A stretch of DNA of 36,624 bases from positions 1 to 36,624 of IMG/VR virus record IMGVR_UViG_3300046028_003357, one strand, 5' to 3'. This DNA comes from a virus. A model generated the notes under the pieces. The model searched no databases. It saw only the letters and a list, made by a program, of their open reading frames with translations, and had not been told where the DNA came from. Below, one piece after another: positions 17,554 to 26,198 of this stretch; positions within the stretch are counted from its first letter, which is position 1; every line of letters begins with the position of its first letter. A program made the translations under genes and the position numbers.

Positions 17554-20100
17554 CTAGTTGTTGTCGAAAGTCTTGAAGGTCCAACCGGCTACAGGGTCGT
17601 ATACATAAAGCCTCAGGTTTGTGGAATCCCAGTAGAGCGGAACCCTTTCGTTGAGTGTTCCAGATTGGCCCGGTGTTTCCGTCGGAACTCCGGCATCAGA
17701 CGGGATCCAGACAAACCCATATTCCATGTTGGTGGCCCCTGCAGGGCCATACAAGTCAGCGCCACTCTCTGCCCAACTGCTTTCCTCGATAACCTTTCCT
17801 GTGCTGTCAGCAAACTTGGCAAAATAGTTTGCATTCGCGCCGCTCGGCCCAACCACGTCTCCGGTACCTGCTCCAGTTGCTGCAATGGTGATCGTGCCAG
17901 GGCCATTCGTGATCGTGATGCCGGTGCCAGCAGTCAGCGTAGCCTTGGTCCACCCGTCATCATCCGCATTGCCGATCAGCAGCTCGCCATTGGCGAAGCT
18001 GGGGAAGCCAAGGCCGCCATTGGCGCTGCTCAGGTATCCCTGCAGCGTCATCGTGCCCGAGGTGGTGATGGGAGTGCCATCGAACGACATCCCGGTGGTG
18101 CCGCCCGAAAGCGCAACGCTCGTGACCGTGCCGGTGTTGTTGGTGTAGCCGTTGGGATTGGTTGCGGGGTAGGCGCCAAGGTTGATCAGGGCGTTTCCAG
18201 CATCCGTTGCCCCGGTGCCTCCATTCGAAACGGCCAACATCCCAGAGATTGTGATCGTACCCGACGACGTGATCGGGCCGCCGGTGGTGGTAAGGCCTGT
18301 CGTGCCGCCGTCCACACCCACCGACGTCACGCTGGCCCCTGCGGCAATGCCGTCGAGCTTGGTGGCCTGTGTGGACGTCATGTACCCGTTCTGCGTGGTC
18401 GTGGCCGGCACCTGGCTGATCACCGGGGTGGTGCTGCCGGTAGCCACCGAGATGTTGGCGCCGCCCGAGGCCGAGACGTTGGTCACGGTGCCGGTGTTGC
18501 TGGTGTACCCAGCCGGATTGGTGTCGGGGTAGGCCCCGAGGTTGGTCAGGGCTCCAGCAGCCGTCGTGGCTCCGGTGCCGCCGTTGGCAACGGCAAGTGT
18601 ACCGGCCAGCGTCAGCGTGCCTGTGGTCGTCACAGGGCCGCCCGAGAAGCTCATCCCTGTCGTACCGCCGGAAGCATCCACCGACGTCACGGTACCGGCA
18701 GCAGAGGCTGACAGCGTGGTCCCGGACATCGAGAGGCCGGTGCCCAGGCTGATCTCCTGCGTGACTCCAGCACCAGCACCAGCACCGCGGCCAAGCAGTC
18801 GGGAGGCAGCCGAAATGTCCTGAATCTTGGCGTAGGTCACCGCGCTGCTGGCGATTGTCTGGGCCGTACCACCGGCAGCCTTGGTGACGTCCCCGGTGAA
18901 GGCACTGGTCTGGATGCCGCCGGAGTCTGTGAACTCCACACCGCCGCCGACATTCAATTCCTCAACAACGCCCGTCCCCGAGGTATCGCGGCCCAGGATC
19001 TTGTCGGTGGCAATCTGCTGCACCTTGGCGAAGGTCACCGCATTGTTGGCAATGGTCGCAGCGAAGGACCCCGTGCCAGACCCGGTGACATCCCCGGTTA
19101 GCGTGATGGTCTGGTCGCCCGTGTTGCTGCCCGACAGGTTGCTGCCGGTAACCGTGCCCGAGGCAGCCACCGAGGTCGGGGTGATGGCACCCAATGCTAC
19201 GGTCAGGTTGGGCGTGCTGGTCGCATTGGTGACCGTACCGCTCACGCCGTTGGCATTGGTGAACCCGAAGGACGTCACCGTGCCGGTGTTCGACGTGTAG
19301 CCATTCGGATTCGACGCAGGGTAGGCCCCCAGGCTCGTCAAGGCAGCCGCCTCGGTGGTTGCACCGGTTCCGCCTGCCGACACGGCTACAACCCCTCCCA
19401 GCGTGATTGTGCCGCTGCTGGTGATCGGGCCGCCCGAGGTCGTCAGGCCGGTCAGGCCTCCAGAGACATTGACGCTGGTCACACCGCCGCCGGTGGGTCC
19501 CGGGGGGCCGGCAGGGCCAGTGGGGCCAGCAGGACCCTGCGGACCCTGCAGGCCGCCGGCACCGAGGGGTTTGGTTTGGCCGGTGTCGAGCCGGGTGATC
19601 TCACAGATAGCGAAGGTCTCATCAACCCCAGCAATGCTGGTCGGTACACCGAGATGATCTGCACCGTTGGCAGTGATGTAGTATTCCAGCCGGTAGACCG
19701 TGTCCTTGTGCGGTGCGATCCGCACGTTCATGTCGAGGTACTGGTTTGACTGATTGCTGACGTCGACCGAGACGCTGTAGCCGATGACGACAGCGTTCGT
19801 GACATCGTACAGCCGCATCCGGGTCTCGCGGGTGTGCTTGAAGGCAGCGATTGATCGCACCTGATAGGACCCGGCAGCCAGTTTGAAAGTGTTGCTTTCC
19901 AACTGAATGATCAGCCCGTTGGGATCGGACTGGATCGTGTTGAGCTCCCGAGTGGTCCAGGTGGTAGCCACGCCCGTCCCGCCGCTGGTTCCGCTGGCCT
20001 TGCTGTCGGTCAGCACCGCCACCTTCAGCGTCAGGCTGTCGACGTCCTTCCGCAGCTTGTTGATCAGGCTGGTTGCCGTCTGTGAATCGTAGGAGCTCAT
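17554..20100 (-). CDS. Tail fibre with C1q-like N-terminal part, collagen-like segment and repeats
   Basis: The protein has 848 residues. A short coiled coil (about 10-32) is followed by a beta-rich segment 47-171 that resembles the C1q/TNF-type jelly roll seen in phage fibres (LESNTFKLAAGSYQVRSIAA). A collagen-like Gly-X-Y run lies at about 185-204 (GPQGPAGPTGPAGPPGPTG). Then come related modules with GGPITSSGTITLGG, GGTGAT and LGAYPxxNPxGYTSNTG near residues 206-278, 469-541 and 592-661, with a decayed fourth copy to about 700. The C-terminus (YWDSTNLRLYVYDPVAGWTF) is a different compact end. It probably binds the host surface. The ATG overlaps the stop of the polyvalent-protein gene. Confidence 0.85.
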   Translation of the reverse strand: MSSYDSQTATSLINKLRKDVDSLTLKVAVLTDSKASGTSGGTGVATTWTTRELNTIQSDPNGLIIQLESNTFKLAAGSYQVRSIAAFKHTRETRMRLYDVTNAVVIGYSVSVDVSNQSNQYLDMNVRIAPHKDTVYRLEYYITANGADHLGVPTSIAGVDETFAICEITRLDTGQTKPLGAGGLQGPQGPAGPTGPAGPPGPTGGGVTSVNVSGGLTGLTTSGGPITSSGTITLGGVVAVSAGGTGATTEAAALTSLGAYPASNPNGYTSNTGTVTSFGFTNANGVSGTVTNATSTPNLTVALGAITPTSVAASGTVTGSNLSGSNTGDQTITLTGDVTGSGTGSFAATIANNAVTFAKVQQIATDKILGRDTSGTGVVEELNVGGGVEFTDSGGIQTSAFTGDVTKAAGGTAQTIASSAVTYAKIQDISAASRLLGRGAGAGAGVTQEISLGTGLSMSGTTLSASAAGTVTSVDASGGTTGMSFSGGPVTTTGTLTLAGTLAVANGGTGATTAAGALTNLGAYPDTNPAGYTSNTGTVTNVSASGGANISVATGSTTPVISQVPATTTQNGYMTSTQATKLDGIAAGASVTSVGVDGGTTGLTTTGGPITSSGTITISGMLAVSNGGTGATDAGNALINLGAYPATNPNGYTNNTGTVTSVALSGGTTGMSFDGTPITTSGTMTLQGYLSSANGGLGFPSFANGELLIGNADDDGWTKATLTAGTGITITNGPGTITIAATGAGTGDVVGPSGANANYFAKFADSTGKVIEESSWAESGADLYGPAGATNMEYGFVWIPSDAGVPTETPGQSGTLNERVPLYWDSTNLRLYVYDPVAGWTFKTFDNN
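18001..19485 (-). repeat. Repeated modules within the tail fibre gene
   Basis: Three clear copies and one degenerate copy of a module of about 70 codons lie at about 19267-19485, 18478-18696, 18118-18327 and 18001-18123. Each holds a GG-P-x-T-T/S-S-G-T strand pair followed by a GGTGAT turn and a LGAYP-NP-GY-NTGTVT stretch. Such duplications are hot spots for recombination and host-range change. Confidence 0.75.
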
Positions 20101-23100
20101 GGGCGGGTCTTGCGGCGGATGATGCGTTGTGCCTCCTCCAGGCTCGAGGCAATGCCGATCAGGCTGCCTGCAGGGCCGTAGAGGCGAAGGGAGCCCTTGG
20201 CTTTGCCCGGGATGGCCCGGTAGCCGCCCGGGAACGAATAGGCCCCGGGCATGGCGGAGTCGGGCTGGGGCATATACCGGATATCCTCCGAGGTTGCCTT
20301 GAAGCGCTGGGAGAGGGGGATGATGTTGCCGGCGTCGTCCTTGGTGATCGCATCAACCAGTTTGACCTGGCTTGAATCTGCGACGTAGTAGATACGTTCG
20401 TTGCCGGGTAATTCGACAATGCCAGCCTTGGTAGGTTGATTTTCCGCACTGAACCCAGACATCACTTGCCCAAGCGTTTGCGGTGTAGCTTGGAATACGG
20501 GAGCCCCTTCAGGAATGCGTAGGAAAACCCGCTTCACTTCGGGCACGGCCTTTGTCGAGGTCATCACCTTGGCCGCCTCAATAAAGCTGTCGGACAACCT
20601 TTTGTTGATAGGCTTCAGGTCTTTGGCGTAACCACGCAGTTCCTTGATGAACTCAGGGACGTCGTCAATGGAGCCCCAGTCGAACTCAGGCAGCATCCCG
20701 TCATCGACCGAGCTGTAGCCCTTGGACGAGAAGTACTCCTGAGCAGCCACGTCCTCGTCGAACATACGCATTGCGTCGTTGGCAACACGCAGGCCGGCGT
20801 CCAATCGCACAGCCTCGTCACCTAGGCGCTTGGAGTAGCCTTCAGCAGCCTTCTTGTCGGTGGTGAACGAGAACGCTTGGCGGGACACACCCGAGGTCTC
20901 GCCACGCATCCGCTTGTCGAATACGTTGAACCCGCCTGTAGGTGTGCCGTGGTAGACAGGACCAATGGTATACCCAGCCGCCTTCGCCGCCTCATCCACC
21001 ATCCGCTGCGCGGTGGCCGTGTCGCCAGCCTTCACCGCAGAGAGGTAGTCGGTGTCCGAGGCAGGCATATTCCGCACGCTGATTGCCGCGGCGATCTTCT
21101 TGGAAGGCACCGCCCACAGGTTCTCCGGGTCGTAGTTCTCGATCTCGTCGATCTTCTTCAGCCGGATGGGGTCTTCCATGCCGTCGTAGGGTGCGCCGTA
21201 GATCCGGTAGCCCTTCTCAAACAGGTCCATGGCCTCACGATGGGTATTGACGCCGCGGCCCGAGGCCATGTCGGATGGCATATAGCGCAGCATGGCCTCC
21301 TTGATAGGACCGTGCTCCGTGTCGGATTGGTTCAACCGATCCCACACCTCGTGGTGCAGCAACGTCTGGGCGAAGTCCTTGAATGCAGCGGGAACTTTGA
21401 TGCCAAGCTGAGTCAGACGGTCCTTCTGCTCCATCAGCACCTGCTTGGTGACAGGCACTTCCTTGCCGTAGACCAGTTTGCCCTGGCGGCTGTCGAATGT
21501 CGGGATGTCGCCGCGACCAAGCTGGCCAGACCAGAACCCAACCTTGCCGTAGCTGATGCCCTTAAAGTTGTTCCTGACGTAGTCGATGAACTTGTCCGTC
21601 GGCATCGAGTTGACCGCGTCGATGATCTCCTGCGCCTTCGGGTAGAACTGCTCGACAGCAGTCTTCATCTGCTCTTTCAGCTTATTATGGAAGCCGAACG
21701 ACCGGAACTTCTGCACCACCGCATCTGCGGCTTGCTCATCGAACACGCCGCGCTCTGCGGCGTTGAGGTACTGTTGCCCTTCAGGAGTGCCGAGAAGCTG
21801 CGCGAAAGCGTCCTCTGGGCGCACCTTGGTACCTTCAGCGAACGGAGCGTCCGGCCAGTTCTTCTTGATCGTAGAAACAGGCAGCTCCTGGCGCTGAATT
21901 GATGACAGCGTGATGCCGTAGGATTTGACCACGTCGCGCAGCGTGATGCCCTTGTCGCGCATCGAACGCATGAACGCACCAAAGGCCTTGGCCCCACCTT
22001 TTACGTCACCACCACCAACCTCGGCCGCAATCGCATTGATGTCGCGTGCGGTCAGGCTGGATGGCATGAAGCGCTCACTGGGAACCGACGGGATGCCTTG
22101 CTTCGTTTTGATCGTGTTGATGATGTTGTCCATCACCGGCATGACCGTCTGAAGTGGCTGGGCAGTCACAATTCCCTGAGCGTTCCTGATGCGCTTCTCA
22201 GTGCTCAGGTCCGATATGTTGTAGAACTTGTCGAGGTATCCAATGGTTTCGCCATGGATTGTCCAAGGATACGAGTAGTGGAACCCAGTCTTTTCCGGTG
22301 CCTGCTTCACATTGACTCCAAGCAGAGCAACGACAGATCCGAATGGGACGTCAGCCAGCTCAGGATCTGCAATGTCACGGGCAATGTCTGCCGGTGATAT
22401 TCCAGCAGCGGTCAGTTCCTTCGCGGTGATCGGAAGCGCCTTGCGCTGCATCTGGGTCAGCAGCGGCTCCATGTCAGCGAAGTTGAGCTGCTTGTTCTGC
22501 ACCGCATTCTTCAAGTCAGCCAGTGAGTTGATCTTGCTGAACTTGTCACGGGCCGACTGCTTGATCGACTTGGCCGTCGAATTGACGATGGCCGAAGACA
22601 TCGCAGCAATCTGCGAGTTCGCCGCCTTCTTGGTGATTGTTTTGGAATCAATCGCAGCCTGCATGGCCTCGATGTAGGCAAGCTGGCCTGTCTGATTCTT
22701 GAGATGATTGATGGGGCTTTGAACGGTAATTCCGACAATTACGTTGCCGTTTGGATCGGCGTCCTTCTTTAGGCGACTGATGAATCGGTCGGCAGTTGCC
22801 TGATCAGAGAACGCCCATCCACCACCGTTGAAGATGTTCATAAACCCGCGCCCACCTTGGCCTAGGACGCTGAGTTTCCGCTTCGCACCAGTAGGACCAA
22901 CGGCCATCTCTCCGATGCCCATACGGTCAGCAGCAAGCGCGATGATCTTCCTGTCCGCGTAGTCCTCCAGCTTCACCTTGTCACTGGCAGGCATGAACCT
23001 GCCAATGTCAGCCTTGGGTATGGTGAACGTCTCGGAGTCAGGAGCTATGACTACATCCCCCGCTTGTCGAACCGTCCCGACTTGGCCTTGGCCTTCCGCG

Positions 23101-26100
23101 CCACCGAGAGCGCGATCGCCACCGCCTGCTTCTGCGGTTTGCCGGCCTTCATTTCCCGGGAGACGTTGCTGCTGATCGACTTCTGGCTGTAGCCTTGCTT
23201 GAGTGGCATCTGCTTTCCTTTCTGCTTGGGTTTGGGTGTCGTAGATCCCGATGAGCTTGCCATCAGGACCGTAGAGCCTGTGCTTGGCGCCGCTGACGAT
23301 GCGGTAGCCCTCGTCGGAGTTGGTGACGAGCTTGTCGCCGATGGTCTCGGTAGGCATCCAGCGCATCTTGGACTTCTGGATGGCGTCCTCCGAGATACGG
23401 GCGCGGAAGTCCATCGGGGCTGTCGATCCGATGCGGTCCAGGCGGAAGTCGCGCACGAACTTGCGCCCGCCCTTCTCCTGCTCGTTTACGAAGTCACCGA
23501 GGAATTTTGCTTTCTCCAGACCAAAGATCTCGGCAGACCGGCGGGCGCCTTCACCGGCATCGAGGTTGGTGAAGTACGCGGCCAGGTCCGACATGAACCC
23601 GTCGACATTGTCCCACAGGCCGGCAGCCACACCGCCGTCGGGCGCCGTCAGCTTGTCCAAGGCGCCGCGGATCTTGCTGATGTCGATGGCCTTGATGACC
23701 GGGTTGTCGGCCTTGGATAGGTAGAAGCTGTAGGGCAGCACCTCGCGCTGGGAGAGGCGGATGCCGCTGTTGTACTTGCTGGTGAACTTGCCGGTCAGCC
23801 GGTTCTTCACCCGGCGGGTGGCTGCGCCGTAGTTCAGGAAGATGCTGTTGCCGGCGTCCATGGCCGCGTTGACGGCCCGGATCTTGTCCTTCATCCGGCT
23901 GCTGACCGCCTGGGACTGCTCGATGGCGGACAACTGCTGCGGGCTGAACCGGCCCAGGATCTCGCCATCGACCACGCGGGCTCCCGGAACTCCTTCAAGG
24001 ATTGTCCTGATGGCGGCGGTGTCTTTCTCCTCGCGGACGCGAATCTCCTCGTCTGAAAGGTTCCTGACGCTGCCGTCGGGCATCTTCTCAGCCACACCGA
24101 GGTCAACCAACTGCTTGGCGGCAATCGGGTTGGAGACATCCTGCGGTTTCAGGACCTTGCCCGGGCCTTCGTTCTCTATGGTGATGCGCTCATCCAGCTT
24201 GCGCCGGGCACGTACCAGATCGCGCAGCATGGCGTTCACCTGGGGCGATGCCTGCTTCAGATCAGGGAACAGGACCGAATCAGTCGGCTTCACGCCAAAG
24301 GTTCGCTCAATGGTCGCCGCGGCATCGGCCAAGGCCCGGCTGGCGTTCTGGGTCAGAGCCAGGTCGAGAAGTTGCCTGGTAAGCCCCGTGAAGCCCTTCA
24401 GCAGTGCGTCAGGCTTCTGACCTGCCAAAAGCCCGGCGAAGTGCTCTGCAGCCAGCTCCGAGGCAACGTAGCCTGCCTTCTTGTCGATGGTGTCGTACTG
24501 GGCGAGCTGGTCGGCACGCTGCTGATTGCCTGCAGCCAGCTTGTCGCGGTACTGGTTGAAGCGGGCCTCGATCTCGGCGTCATTGAAAGCGCCCTCGGCC
24601 AGCTTGCGGATGGTGTCGCCTTCCTGAATCCAACGGCCAACCAGCGCATCCTTGATCTCGGTGGCACCGCCCTCGAGCTGAGTGGTTTTCTCTAGAGCAT
24701 GGAACAGCTCGTGGCCGAGCGTGTAGAGCGGGCCGTCGCCAGTGCCCTTACCGATGATGTCGGCGTTGATGAATATGGTGGGCCGTTCAGCTTGTTCAAA
24801 CTGCACGCCACGGATGTTGTCGCCGAACTTTTCGGCCATCTGAGCGTTGGAACGGTAGAGGATATCGACATCCCCGAACTTGCCGCGCACCAATCCCTGC
24901 AGATCCATCAGCGCCGAGGCAGCATCCACACCGTGCTGATCGCGCACCCGCTCAAACAGCGCCTTGGTTGTCGGGTCTTGCTGGGCGTCAATGAACCGCC
25001 CGAGGTCTCCGGCACGTGCCTCCTTGGCGGCCTTGCCTGTGAGCCGCTCGAAACCGCGGGCACCGAGAGCACCGGCTGCGCCCTGAACAAGGCCAGATCC
25101 AAGGCCTGCAGCAGCCCCTTCCTCGCCACCGGACAAAAAGCCCAAGCCTGTACCAACCGTTGCGCCTTCAATTCCTCCGGCAAGCCCCCTCAGTGAGGCA
25201 TCCAACGCAGCGTCCCCACCGTACTGCCCGACCACACCAAGCATACGCTGGCGTAGGTTGGCACCCGGGGCAGCACCGATGGCCTCCAGAGGCCCGATGC
25301 GCGAAGGCTGGGTCATCAGGTTCTCGCCAGCCCGTGTCAGCGCTTCGCCAGCCTCGCGTGCGGTACGGATGCCGGCAGGAATGGCAGCGAAGGCTGCGGC
25401 CTCCGGTGCAATACCGAGGGCTCCTGCGATACCGGCGGTGGCCGCGGTGCTGCGGAGGCCTTCAGGGGTCATCCCCAAGGCTTCCGCTGTCATGCGCTCG
25501 GCAGCACCGGCAACGCGCTCCAGAGGCCTTGCAGCCCCGGCAATGGCACGCCCAGTGAGTTGAGTGCCTTTACCGACAGCGCGGGTGGCGAGTTTGCCTG
25601 CGCCAAATATTTCACCAACGCCTGGGAGAGCCAGCGTCGGGTCGAGGATCATGGACACGCCCTGGACAAACTCCGGGTTGGTCAGCTCTGGCGGAACGAA
25701 CAGGCCCTCCTCGCCACGCTCCAGTCGGGCTGTGGTGTTGGCAAAGTCGCGGGCCTCGAGGAACTGCTGGTAGCGGGACTCCGGTGTGCCGGTGCCTGCC
25801 ACGAGGTCCTTGAACTTAAAAAGAGGCGAGGCCGGGTCTTGAGACTGCGCCACGAGGCCGTAGAGCTGCCGGGTGCCTTGGGCCGCGCCCTCGATGTAGT
25901 TGAGCGGGTTGACGGCTGCACCCTGCGCACCCTGCGATATGGCGCTACCGATCATACCGGCAGCAGCATCGACAGACTGCGCGATGGTGTTGATCCAGTC
26001 GGTCTGCTTGTTCTTCGCGTACTCCTCGTACTTCAGGTAGTCGTCGACCGATGGTTTGTAGGCCGGGTCCTGCATGGCACCGGCAATGTCCTCGCCGGTG

Positions 26101-26198
26101 GCTGGGAACTGCTCGGACAGAATCCGCTGGGCCTCATCCTGGCCAACAGAATCAGGAAACTCAACAACCTGAGAGCCGACCTGGATCTGGTATGGCAT
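20097..26198 (-). CDS. Giant polyvalent virion protein with metallopeptidase and ADP-ribosyltransferase-like parts
   Basis: The protein has 2033 residues. The N-terminal 400 are Ala/Gly-rich with helical and possibly membrane-active stretches. A zincin-type metallopeptidase is marked by GHELFHALEK (HExxH at 496-500), with a likely third ligand in ASELAAEHF (E581 or E585). An ADP-ribosyltransferase-like module spans about 1713-1973: VYHGTPTGGFNVFD (1748-1761), then SFTTDKKAAEGYSKR. An R-x-M-P motif recurs six times (946, 1067, 1376, 1638, 1709, 1974) at module borders. Two related segments with RLYGPxGxLIGI occur at 965-994 and 1992-2026. Such proteins are packaged in the virion and injected with DNA to modify host targets. 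Residues 997-1049 are low-complexity and overlap a nested gene. Confidence 0.85.
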   Translation of the reverse strand: MPYQIQVGSQVVEFPDSVGQDEAQRILSEQFPATGEDIAGAMQDPAYKPSVDDYLKYEEYAKNKQTDWINTIAQSVDAAAGMIGSAISQGAQGAAVNPLNYIEGAAQGTRQLYGLVAQSQDPASPLFKFKDLVAGTGTPESRYQQFLEARDFANTTARLERGEEGLFVPPELTNPEFVQGVSMILDPTLALPGVGEIFGAGKLATRAVGKGTQLTGRAIAGAARPLERVAGAAERMTAEALGMTPEGLRSTAATAGIAGALGIAPEAAAFAAIPAGIRTAREAGEALTRAGENLMTQPSRIGPLEAIGAAPGANLRQRMLGVVGQYGGDAALDASLRGLAGGIEGATVGTGLGFLSGGEEGAAAGLGSGLVQGAAGALGARGFERLTGKAAKEARAGDLGRFIDAQQDPTTKALFERVRDQHGVDAASALMDLQGLVRGKFGDVDILYRSNAQMAEKFGDNIRGVQFEQAERPTIFINADIIGKGTGDGPLYTLGHELFHALEKTTQLEGGATEIKDALVGRWIQEGDTIRKLAEGAFNDAEIEARFNQYRDKLAAGNQQRADQLAQYDTIDKKAGYVASELAAEHFAGLLAGQKPDALLKGFTGLTRQLLDLALTQNASRALADAAATIERTFGVKPTDSVLFPDLKQASPQVNAMLRDLVRARRKLDERITIENEGPGKVLKPQDVSNPIAAKQLVDLGVAEKMPDGSVRNLSDEEIRVREEKDTAAIRTILEGVPGARVVDGEILGRFSPQQLSAIEQSQAVSSRMKDKIRAVNAAMDAGNSIFLNYGAATRRVKNRLTGKFTSKYNSGIRLSQREVLPYSFYLSKADNPVIKAIDISKIRGALDKLTAPDGGVAAGLWDNVDGFMSDLAAYFTNLDAGEGARRSAEIFGLEKAKFLGDFVNEQEKGGRKFVRDFRLDRIGSTAPMDFRARISEDAIQKSKMRWMPTETIGDKLVTNSDEGYRIVSGAKHRLYGPDGKLIGIYDTQTQAERKADATQARLQPEVDQQQRLPGNEGRQTAEAGGGDRALGGAEGQGQVGTVRQAGDVVIAPDSETFTIPKADIGRFMPASDKVKLEDYADRKIIALAADRMGIGEMAVGPTGAKRKLSVLGQGGRGFMNIFNGGGWAFSDQATADRFISRLKKDADPNGNVIVGITVQSPINHLKNQTGQLAYIEAMQAAIDSKTITKKAANSQIAAMSSAIVNSTAKSIKQSARDKFSKINSLADLKNAVQNKQLNFADMEPLLTQMQRKALPITAKELTAAGISPADIARDIADPELADVPFGSVVALLGVNVKQAPEKTGFHYSYPWTIHGETIGYLDKFYNISDLSTEKRIRNAQGIVTAQPLQTVMPVMDNIINTIKTKQGIPSVPSERFMPSSLTARDINAIAAEVGGGDVKGGAKAFGAFMRSMRDKGITLRDVVKSYGITLSSIQRQELPVSTIKKNWPDAPFAEGTKVRPEDAFAQLLGTPEGQQYLNAAERGVFDEQAADAVVQKFRSFGFHNKLKEQMKTAVEQFYPKAQEIIDAVNSMPTDKFIDYVRNNFKGISYGKVGFWSGQLGRGDIPTFDSRQGKLVYGKEVPVTKQVLMEQKDRLTQLGIKVPAAFKDFAQTLLHHEVWDRLNQSDTEHGPIKEAMLRYMPSDMASGRGVNTHREAMDLFEKGYRIYGAPYDGMEDPIRLKKIDEIENYDPENLWAVPSKKIAAAISVRNMPASDTDYLSAVKAGDTATAQRMVDEAAKAAGYTIGPVYHGTPTGGFNVFDKRMRGETSGVSRQAFSFTTDKKAAEGYSKRLGDEAVRLDAGLRVANDAMRMFDEDVAAQEYFSSKGYSSVDDGMLPEFDWGSIDDVPEFIKELRGYAKDLKPINKRLSDSFIEAAKVMTSTKAVPEVKRVFLRIPEGAPVFQATPQTLGQVMSGFSAENQPTKAGIVELPGNERIYYVADSSQVKLVDAITKDDAGNIIPLSQRFKATSEDIRYMPQPDSAMPGAYSFPGGYRAIPGKAKGSLRLYGPAGSLIGIASSLEEAQRIIRRKTRP
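23051..23209 (-). CDS. Nested 52-residue gene inside the giant protein gene (DUF6496-like family)
   Basis: This gene is in another frame, wholly inside the 2033-codon gene. It encodes MPLKQGYSQKSISSNVSREM, then KAGKPQKQAVAIALSVARKA and a basic tail ending RFDKRGM. This closely matches a small phage protein family I recognise by its ISSN-x(n)-G-x-PQKQAVAIAL core (DUF6496-like). An AGGA lies 6 bases before the ATG. The large protein in this stretch is a Gln/Gly/Glu-rich linker with no recognisable fold, which supports the small frame as the constrained one. It is basic and probably DNA-associated; function is unknown. Confidence 0.8.
   Translation of the reverse strand: MPLKQGYSQKSISSNVSREMKAGKPQKQAVAIALSVARKAKAKSGRFDKRGM

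Follow-up and report, generated by a model that had tools for sequence, protein, structure and literature searches.

A conserved small phage gene lies out of frame within a giant late gene, at the border of its exchangeable cargo

Introduction

When a short open reading frame (ORF) of a widespread phage family is found inside a much longer gene, the question arises whether it is still a gene, what the longer frame encodes where the two coincide, and why the short one should lie just there. This question is raised by a 36.6-kb phage contig (IMG/VR record IMGVR_UViG_3300046028_003357, positions 1-36,624; this whole stretch of 36,624 nucleotides is called the window below), in which a gene of the PHROG 2423 family lies, in the +1 frame, within a frame of 2033 codons. 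A first-pass annotation, made from the sequence of the window, had already read the small frame as a functional phage gene and the overlapping part of the long frame as a linker. Our analysis of the relatives makes genuine dual coding at this locus very likely, with a linker that is free in sequence and kept open, and with DNA that marks and probably anchors the exchange of cargo. That the nested gene stands at the left edge of exchangeable cargo, and thereby marks a border, had been missed by the first-pass annotation. The features concerned are:

23051..23209, minus strand: nested small gene (159 bp), PHROG 2423 family, 52 amino acids (MPLKQGYSQKSISSNVSREMKAGKPQKQAVAIALSVARKAKAKSGRFDKRGM), ATG start, TAG stop at 23053-23051
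20097..26198, minus strand: giant host gene in the late operon, ATG start, 2033 amino acids, putative polyvalent-type ejected virion protein
23051..23210, minus strand: host-frame linker over the nested gene, codons 997-1049, no amino-acid constraint, no stops

Identity of the nested gene

The 52-residue protein aligns over its full length with stand-alone members of its family. The profile of PHROG 2423 was matched with an E value of 5.5e-20 by residues 19-62 of a 70-residue ORF, against positions 1-44 of the 52 in the profile. This longer ORF, which also opens with an ATG, occupies 23051-23263 and was the one delimited by the first-pass annotation; profile position 1 coincides with an inner methionine, and the gene proper starts at the inner ATG at 23209. 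Relatives of the small protein were found in 463 GenBank phage records at E <= 1 and in hundreds of IMG/VR contigs. The match to DUF6496 (PF20106) reached 12.8 bits and is below the gathering cut-off of 24, and literature searches returned no paper on this domain.

Stand-alone homologues are typically neighbours of structural genes. In the records inspected, the homologue is an ordinary gene among those of the head. It follows a P22-type coat gene in MW202867 and lies between the genes for head morphogenesis and head maturation protease in PB1-type and MyoSmar phages, and in metagenomic contigs it commonly follows a coat or other structural gene by 50-80 nt. Going by this neighbourhood, the small protein may be a minor head or DNA-associated protein. 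Its predicted structure is a basic helical hairpin (pLDDT 83; 49-56 amino acids in the family), for which a structure search of the PDB gave no match; the matches in BFVD were other members of the family and proteins in which it is fused to a prohead protease or Nudix protein. Its fold or sequence also occurs as a domain in some large proteins annotated as prohead protease or Nudix (PHROG 3778; A0A8S5NQY6; A0A6J7W8E3), a hint that the small protein belongs to head assembly.

Evidence for dual coding

Loci were collected with the small protein, the constant N-terminal module of the giant protein (N-module), the zincin-like region of this module and the cargo as queries. Across the junction, 64 distinct complete sequences were obtained, of which 62, including the window, form the main set and two (L244 and L254) were added. 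The relatives carrying the giant gene are uncultured phages, all of them metagenomic; the phage collection that was searched yielded no close relative, and one locus (L204) was found in a contig of a Verrucomicrobiota metagenome-assembled genome. Over the 62 sequences, the N-modules fall into two lineages of 46 and 16 members that are about 27% identical in amino acids; lineage A has the commoner N-module, and the nested gene is common to both.

In all 64 complete loci, the ATG, the reading frame, the stop codon and the open host frame were kept, and the nested ORF was intact at 49-56 amino acids in the same relative frame. A locus that looked broken in BLAST (L254) proved to contain an intact version of 49 amino acids with a deletion that is in-frame in both frames. 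Given this protein and the codon usage of the phage, the probability that a host-type frame is open is about 0.15, yet it was open in every complete sequence. When the N-module was scanned in blocks of 30 codons over 34 sequences, the ratio of diversity at codon position 3 to that at positions 1 and 2 of the host frame was 1.59 or more in all scored blocks upstream, and it fell to 0.23 and 0.67 in the nested gene alone, where diversity was highest at position 3 of the small frame and lowest at position 3 of the host frame. Amino-acid identity in the nested segment was 0.93 in the small frame, 0.80-0.82 in the host frame and 0.80 in the unused third frame.

The substitutions follow the same pattern. 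Differences that are silent in the small frame and replacing in the host frame numbered 165 versus 47.6 expected, and those that replace in the small frame and are silent in the host frame 20 versus 61 expected; the sequences are related and these counts are not independent, but every test points in the same direction. An omega-like ratio, the kind of codon-level check that the first-pass annotation had proposed, was 0.14 for the small frame and 1.5-1.9 for the host frame when conditioned on the small frame. Changes creating a stop in the host frame were absent, with 10 expected, and codons ending in T where this T would give a host stop made up 0/719, compared with 20/1527 elsewhere; the share of T-ending codons in stand-alone homologues was 0.12 versus 0.19. 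Taken together, frame diversity, substitutions and stop avoidance indicate that the small protein is conserved, that the host linker is free in sequence and that its openness is maintained. Selection on the inner frame is independent of the outer frame, the property by which functional overlapping genes are recognised. Both the functional small gene and the unconstrained linker of the first-pass annotation are borne out, and the pattern is the opposite of a broken small frame beside a conserved linker, which it had named as the observation that would speak against it.

A misassembled or otherwise artificial host frame was ruled out, because dozens of independent contigs share the fusion with differing cargo. 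Among 31 contigs of 32-44 kb that were searched, 29 had a single copy of the small gene (in stand-alone form in four of them), one had two copies, one per end, and one (L134) had none. Apart from the contig with two nested copies, no second, stand-alone copy was found elsewhere in the contigs searched. The two-copy contig (44,050 bp; L088 and L004/L104) carries two different giant-gene junctions at opposite ends, with nested proteins 100% and 90% identical to that of the window, and probably represents two strains joined in assembly. The contig without the small gene was reached via the cargo query only; it had been considered to hold a degraded copy on account of VRQDGLVV in its host frame, but no remnant was present in its other frames.

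Organisation of the giant gene

The giant protein consists of two constant parts around the linker and the cargo:

23211..26198, minus strand: constant N-module, codons 1-996
24699..24713, minus strand: HELFH motif, codons 496-500, within the N-module; candidate zincin-like metallopeptidase, fold match not significant
23238..23279, minus strand: RLYGPDGKLIGIYD at the end of the N-module, where it repeats the motif of the C-terminal tail
20229..23053, minus strand: exchangeable cargo region, beginning at the nested stop codon and including a weak ART-PolyVal match at codons 1748-1807
20100..20228, minus strand: constant C-terminal tail, GYRAIPGKAKGSLRLYGPAGSLIGIASSLEEAQRIIRRKTRP

Complete host genes of the relatives range from about 1,300 to 2,600 codons. 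The linker codons 997-1049 and the borders at RLYGPDGKLIGIYD and IAPDSETFTIP are as the first-pass annotation had described them. The N-module ends in GYR..RLYGPDGKLIGIYD; this end and the C-terminal tail of the whole protein are homologous (47% over 34 amino acids), and both follow the pattern GYR..RLYGPxGxLIGI. The ART-PolyVal match in the window's cargo is below the cut-off (24 versus 31.2 bits), and in the cargo of relatives the domain is above it, with 120 bits in L005 and 47 bits, together with DUF7178, in L108. For the HELFH motif of the N-module, the best PDB matches of the predicted fold were mostly zinc metallopeptidases and were not significant. From the position in the late operon, the ART-PolyVal domain in the cargo and the HELFH motif, the giant product would appear to be a polyvalent-type protein that is ejected into the host.

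The motif R[FYW]MP occurs five times in the window's giant protein (20097-26198, minus strand; codons 946, 1067, 1376, 1638 and 1974), where shuffling gives an expectation of 0.01, and on average 3.0 times per relative. Cargo modules often open with it, and it resembles a repeated module border or a cleavage site; in combination with HELFH, the repeats suggest that the giant chain may process itself.

Cargo exchange at the nested gene

The host proteins diverge completely as soon as the nested stop codon is passed. We counted 35 distinct nine-residue cargo starts, some of them variants of each other, all in the host frame and often of the form V-RFMP; the constant tail closes the cargo. Between the lineages, DNA identity rose from 0.46-0.54 upstream of the nested gene to 0.87 in one half of it and 0.78 in the other, and was back at about 0.50 downstream, against a baseline of 0.46 for random pairs; lineages with the same cargo reached 0.89 downstream of the nested gene. 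As far as the compared sequences go, the nested gene is the only DNA shared by both diverged lineages at the left edge of the cargo. In lineage A, linkage weakens across this gene, with r of 0.59 between the upstream region and the 5' half, 0.28 between the halves and 0.05 between the 3' half and the cargo, and incompatible sites within the gene gave an Rm of 12, to which homoplasy may contribute. The island of identity, the decay of linkage and the incompatible sites together point to crossovers in or beside the nested gene, by which cargo has been swapped between the lineages.

These observations can be combined into a tentative mechanism. Since the small gene would be needed and is therefore conserved, its DNA would provide the homology common to otherwise diverged phages at the junction, and crossovers within it would swap the downstream cargo. 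Selection for an intact small protein would tend to hold both frames in register across each new joint, because recombinants that are out of register would be eliminated. It is possible, although less likely than not, that the nested gene acts as a frame-keeping adapter for recombination which delivers whatever follows its stop codon in frame with the N-module. If so, these phages swap ejected effectors via a built-in, selectable joint. The position of the nested gene at the site of effector-cargo exchange makes in-frame swapping of effector domains directly testable.

Several points weigh against dual coding with an anchoring role. Kinship and homoplasy inflate both the substitution counts and Rm, and lineage B, like several other members, has a weak Shine-Dalgarno (SD) sequence before the nested ATG. 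Another phage family (L134, L269-L274) exchanges cargo modules without the nested gene, which is thus not required for cargo exchange in general, and the anchoring role could be no more than a side effect of conservation. The giant proteins of that family carry the VVIAP cargo of the window and the cargo of L095, joined to other N-modules; their cargo often follows a constant segment ending in QRRGQAMPD, and the small gene is absent.

Translation of the nested gene

Ribosomes would initiate internally at the nested ATG to produce the small protein, to judge from the conserved start, and the giant frame would be read through the nested gene as a linker, yielding one long chain. The feature preceding the start is:

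23216..23220, minus strand: SD-like AAGGA, 6 bases 5' of the nested ATG, kept in lineage A only

The first-pass annotation had pointed to AGGA 6 bases before the ATG as a start signal of the gene's own. It is present, but AAAGGA is kept in lineage A, and lineage B has AGAAAAAG or a similar sequence. As most genes of the phage also lack a clear SD sequence, this element is weaker evidence than had been implied. Among the gene starts on the minus strand of the window, the general scarcity of clear SD sequences is a hint that the host initiates translation differently.

Two other accounts of the small frame have to be weighed against internal initiation at a functional gene. The small protein might be made as a fusion to the N-module if ribosomes shifted frame (+1 or -2) just ahead of the nested gene. 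In favour of this one could cite an A-rich stretch before the ATG and a small frame that, in the members checked, stays open over at least 14 codons 5' of the ATG, in some of them over many more. We regard this as improbable, because the ATG is invariant and equals the start of the stand-alone family genes, the lineages share no slippery heptamer, and codon diversity upstream of the ATG tracks the host frame only. The other account, in which the small ORF is dead, was captured as a linker and stays open by chance or through constraint at the nucleotide level, could draw on recent recombination to explain the high conservation of the DNA. Such a relic would not concentrate its variation at position 3 of the small frame, be depleted of replacing changes or vary in length in ways that preserve both frames; the substitution test, the position-3 variation and these length variants led us to reject it, and we give it hardly any chance. 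Internal initiation at a functional nested gene is the reading that we retain.

Origin of the arrangement

How the two frames came together is a separate matter, and two histories compete. In the history that the first-pass annotation favoured, two adjacent genes with the small gene between them were fused; the first would have been an N-module gene with the RLYGP tail at its end and the second a cargo gene with the same tail, and loss of the first stop would have joined them. This agrees with the homology between the end of the N-module and the C-terminus, which it predicts, and with the SD sequence and ATG that sit right at the end of the internal tail motif. However, no unfused ancestor or relative was found among the loci obtained with the N-module, zincin-region or cargo queries, and the three zincin-region loci that lack the small gene (L237, L245, L255) end before the site. 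The predicted relative with the small gene standing alone between two separate genes did not turn up, all relatives being fused, and the stand-alone homologues are located elsewhere, in most cases behind a coat or other structural gene. We consider a fusion quite possible, if short of even chances; it is a rival on origin only and is compatible with present dual coding.

Alternatively, the small gene, cargo and tail could have entered the end of the giant gene as a cassette, through recombination at the tail motif, and left a tail on either side. The tail motif on both sides of the small gene and cargo, the cargo that elsewhere is joined to other N-modules, and the usual home of the small gene elsewhere would be in line with such an insertion, which fits equally well since both histories predict flanking tails. 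Neither a free cassette nor an empty site was found, and the linkage in lineage A, which ties the 5' half of the small gene to the N-module and its 3' half hardly to the cargo, indicates that the small gene and the cargo do not move together at present. A cassette is likewise possible, at less than even chances.

Comparison with known systems

The nested gene is intact across dozens of phages and in two deeply diverged host genes, and gene callers that discard nested ORFs will overlook a conserved phage gene throughout this group. Literature searches found no report of this nested arrangement. With the annotated members of PHROG 2423 (PB1 gp20; Ab28 gp35, annotated as 'virion protein'; MW202867) the nested protein shares the start, a similar length and the KPQKQAVAIAL core, and it differs from them in its DKRGM-type C-terminus. 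The annotated relatives that were inspected are separate genes with an overlap of a few bases at most, in or near the head and packaging operon, whereas here the gene is wholly contained in another, late giant gene.

Polymorphic toxins such as CdiA and Rhs proteins have a conserved motif before a variable C-terminus. The giant protein resembles them in its constant N-terminal part, sharp border and exchangeable C-terminal effectors, but its border is a protein-coding gene in another frame instead of a peptide motif, and a constant C-terminal tail follows the cargo. For the modules of lambdoid phages, conserved boundary sequences have been proposed as recombination joints. Short shared DNA at a module border is common to both cases; here, however, the shared stretch is a gene in its own right within an ORF, so that its conservation can be accounted for by selection on the small protein.

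Another phage gene nested out of frame is Rz1 within Rz of lambda. Gene E of phiX174 likewise lies complete within another frame of the longer gene D, with both frames in use (PMC8227390). In such pairs the inner gene is usually regarded as the younger one, as nested genes in general are explained as new genes inside old ones (overprinting), whereas here an old and widespread gene is covered by a newer and unconstrained long frame. Polyvalent proteins of phages (Iyer et al. 2017, PMC5512222) are the likeness for the host gene, whose product resembles them as a giant multidomain protein of the late operon with a HExxH motif, and with ART-PolyVal in the cargo. Cassette recombination in the manner of polymorphic toxins has already been raised for them; a search of that text showed no mention of overlap, and the word 'nested' applied to a hairpin fold alone (PMC5512222). 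Relative to those polyvalent proteins, a separate gene that marks the border of the cargo is new.

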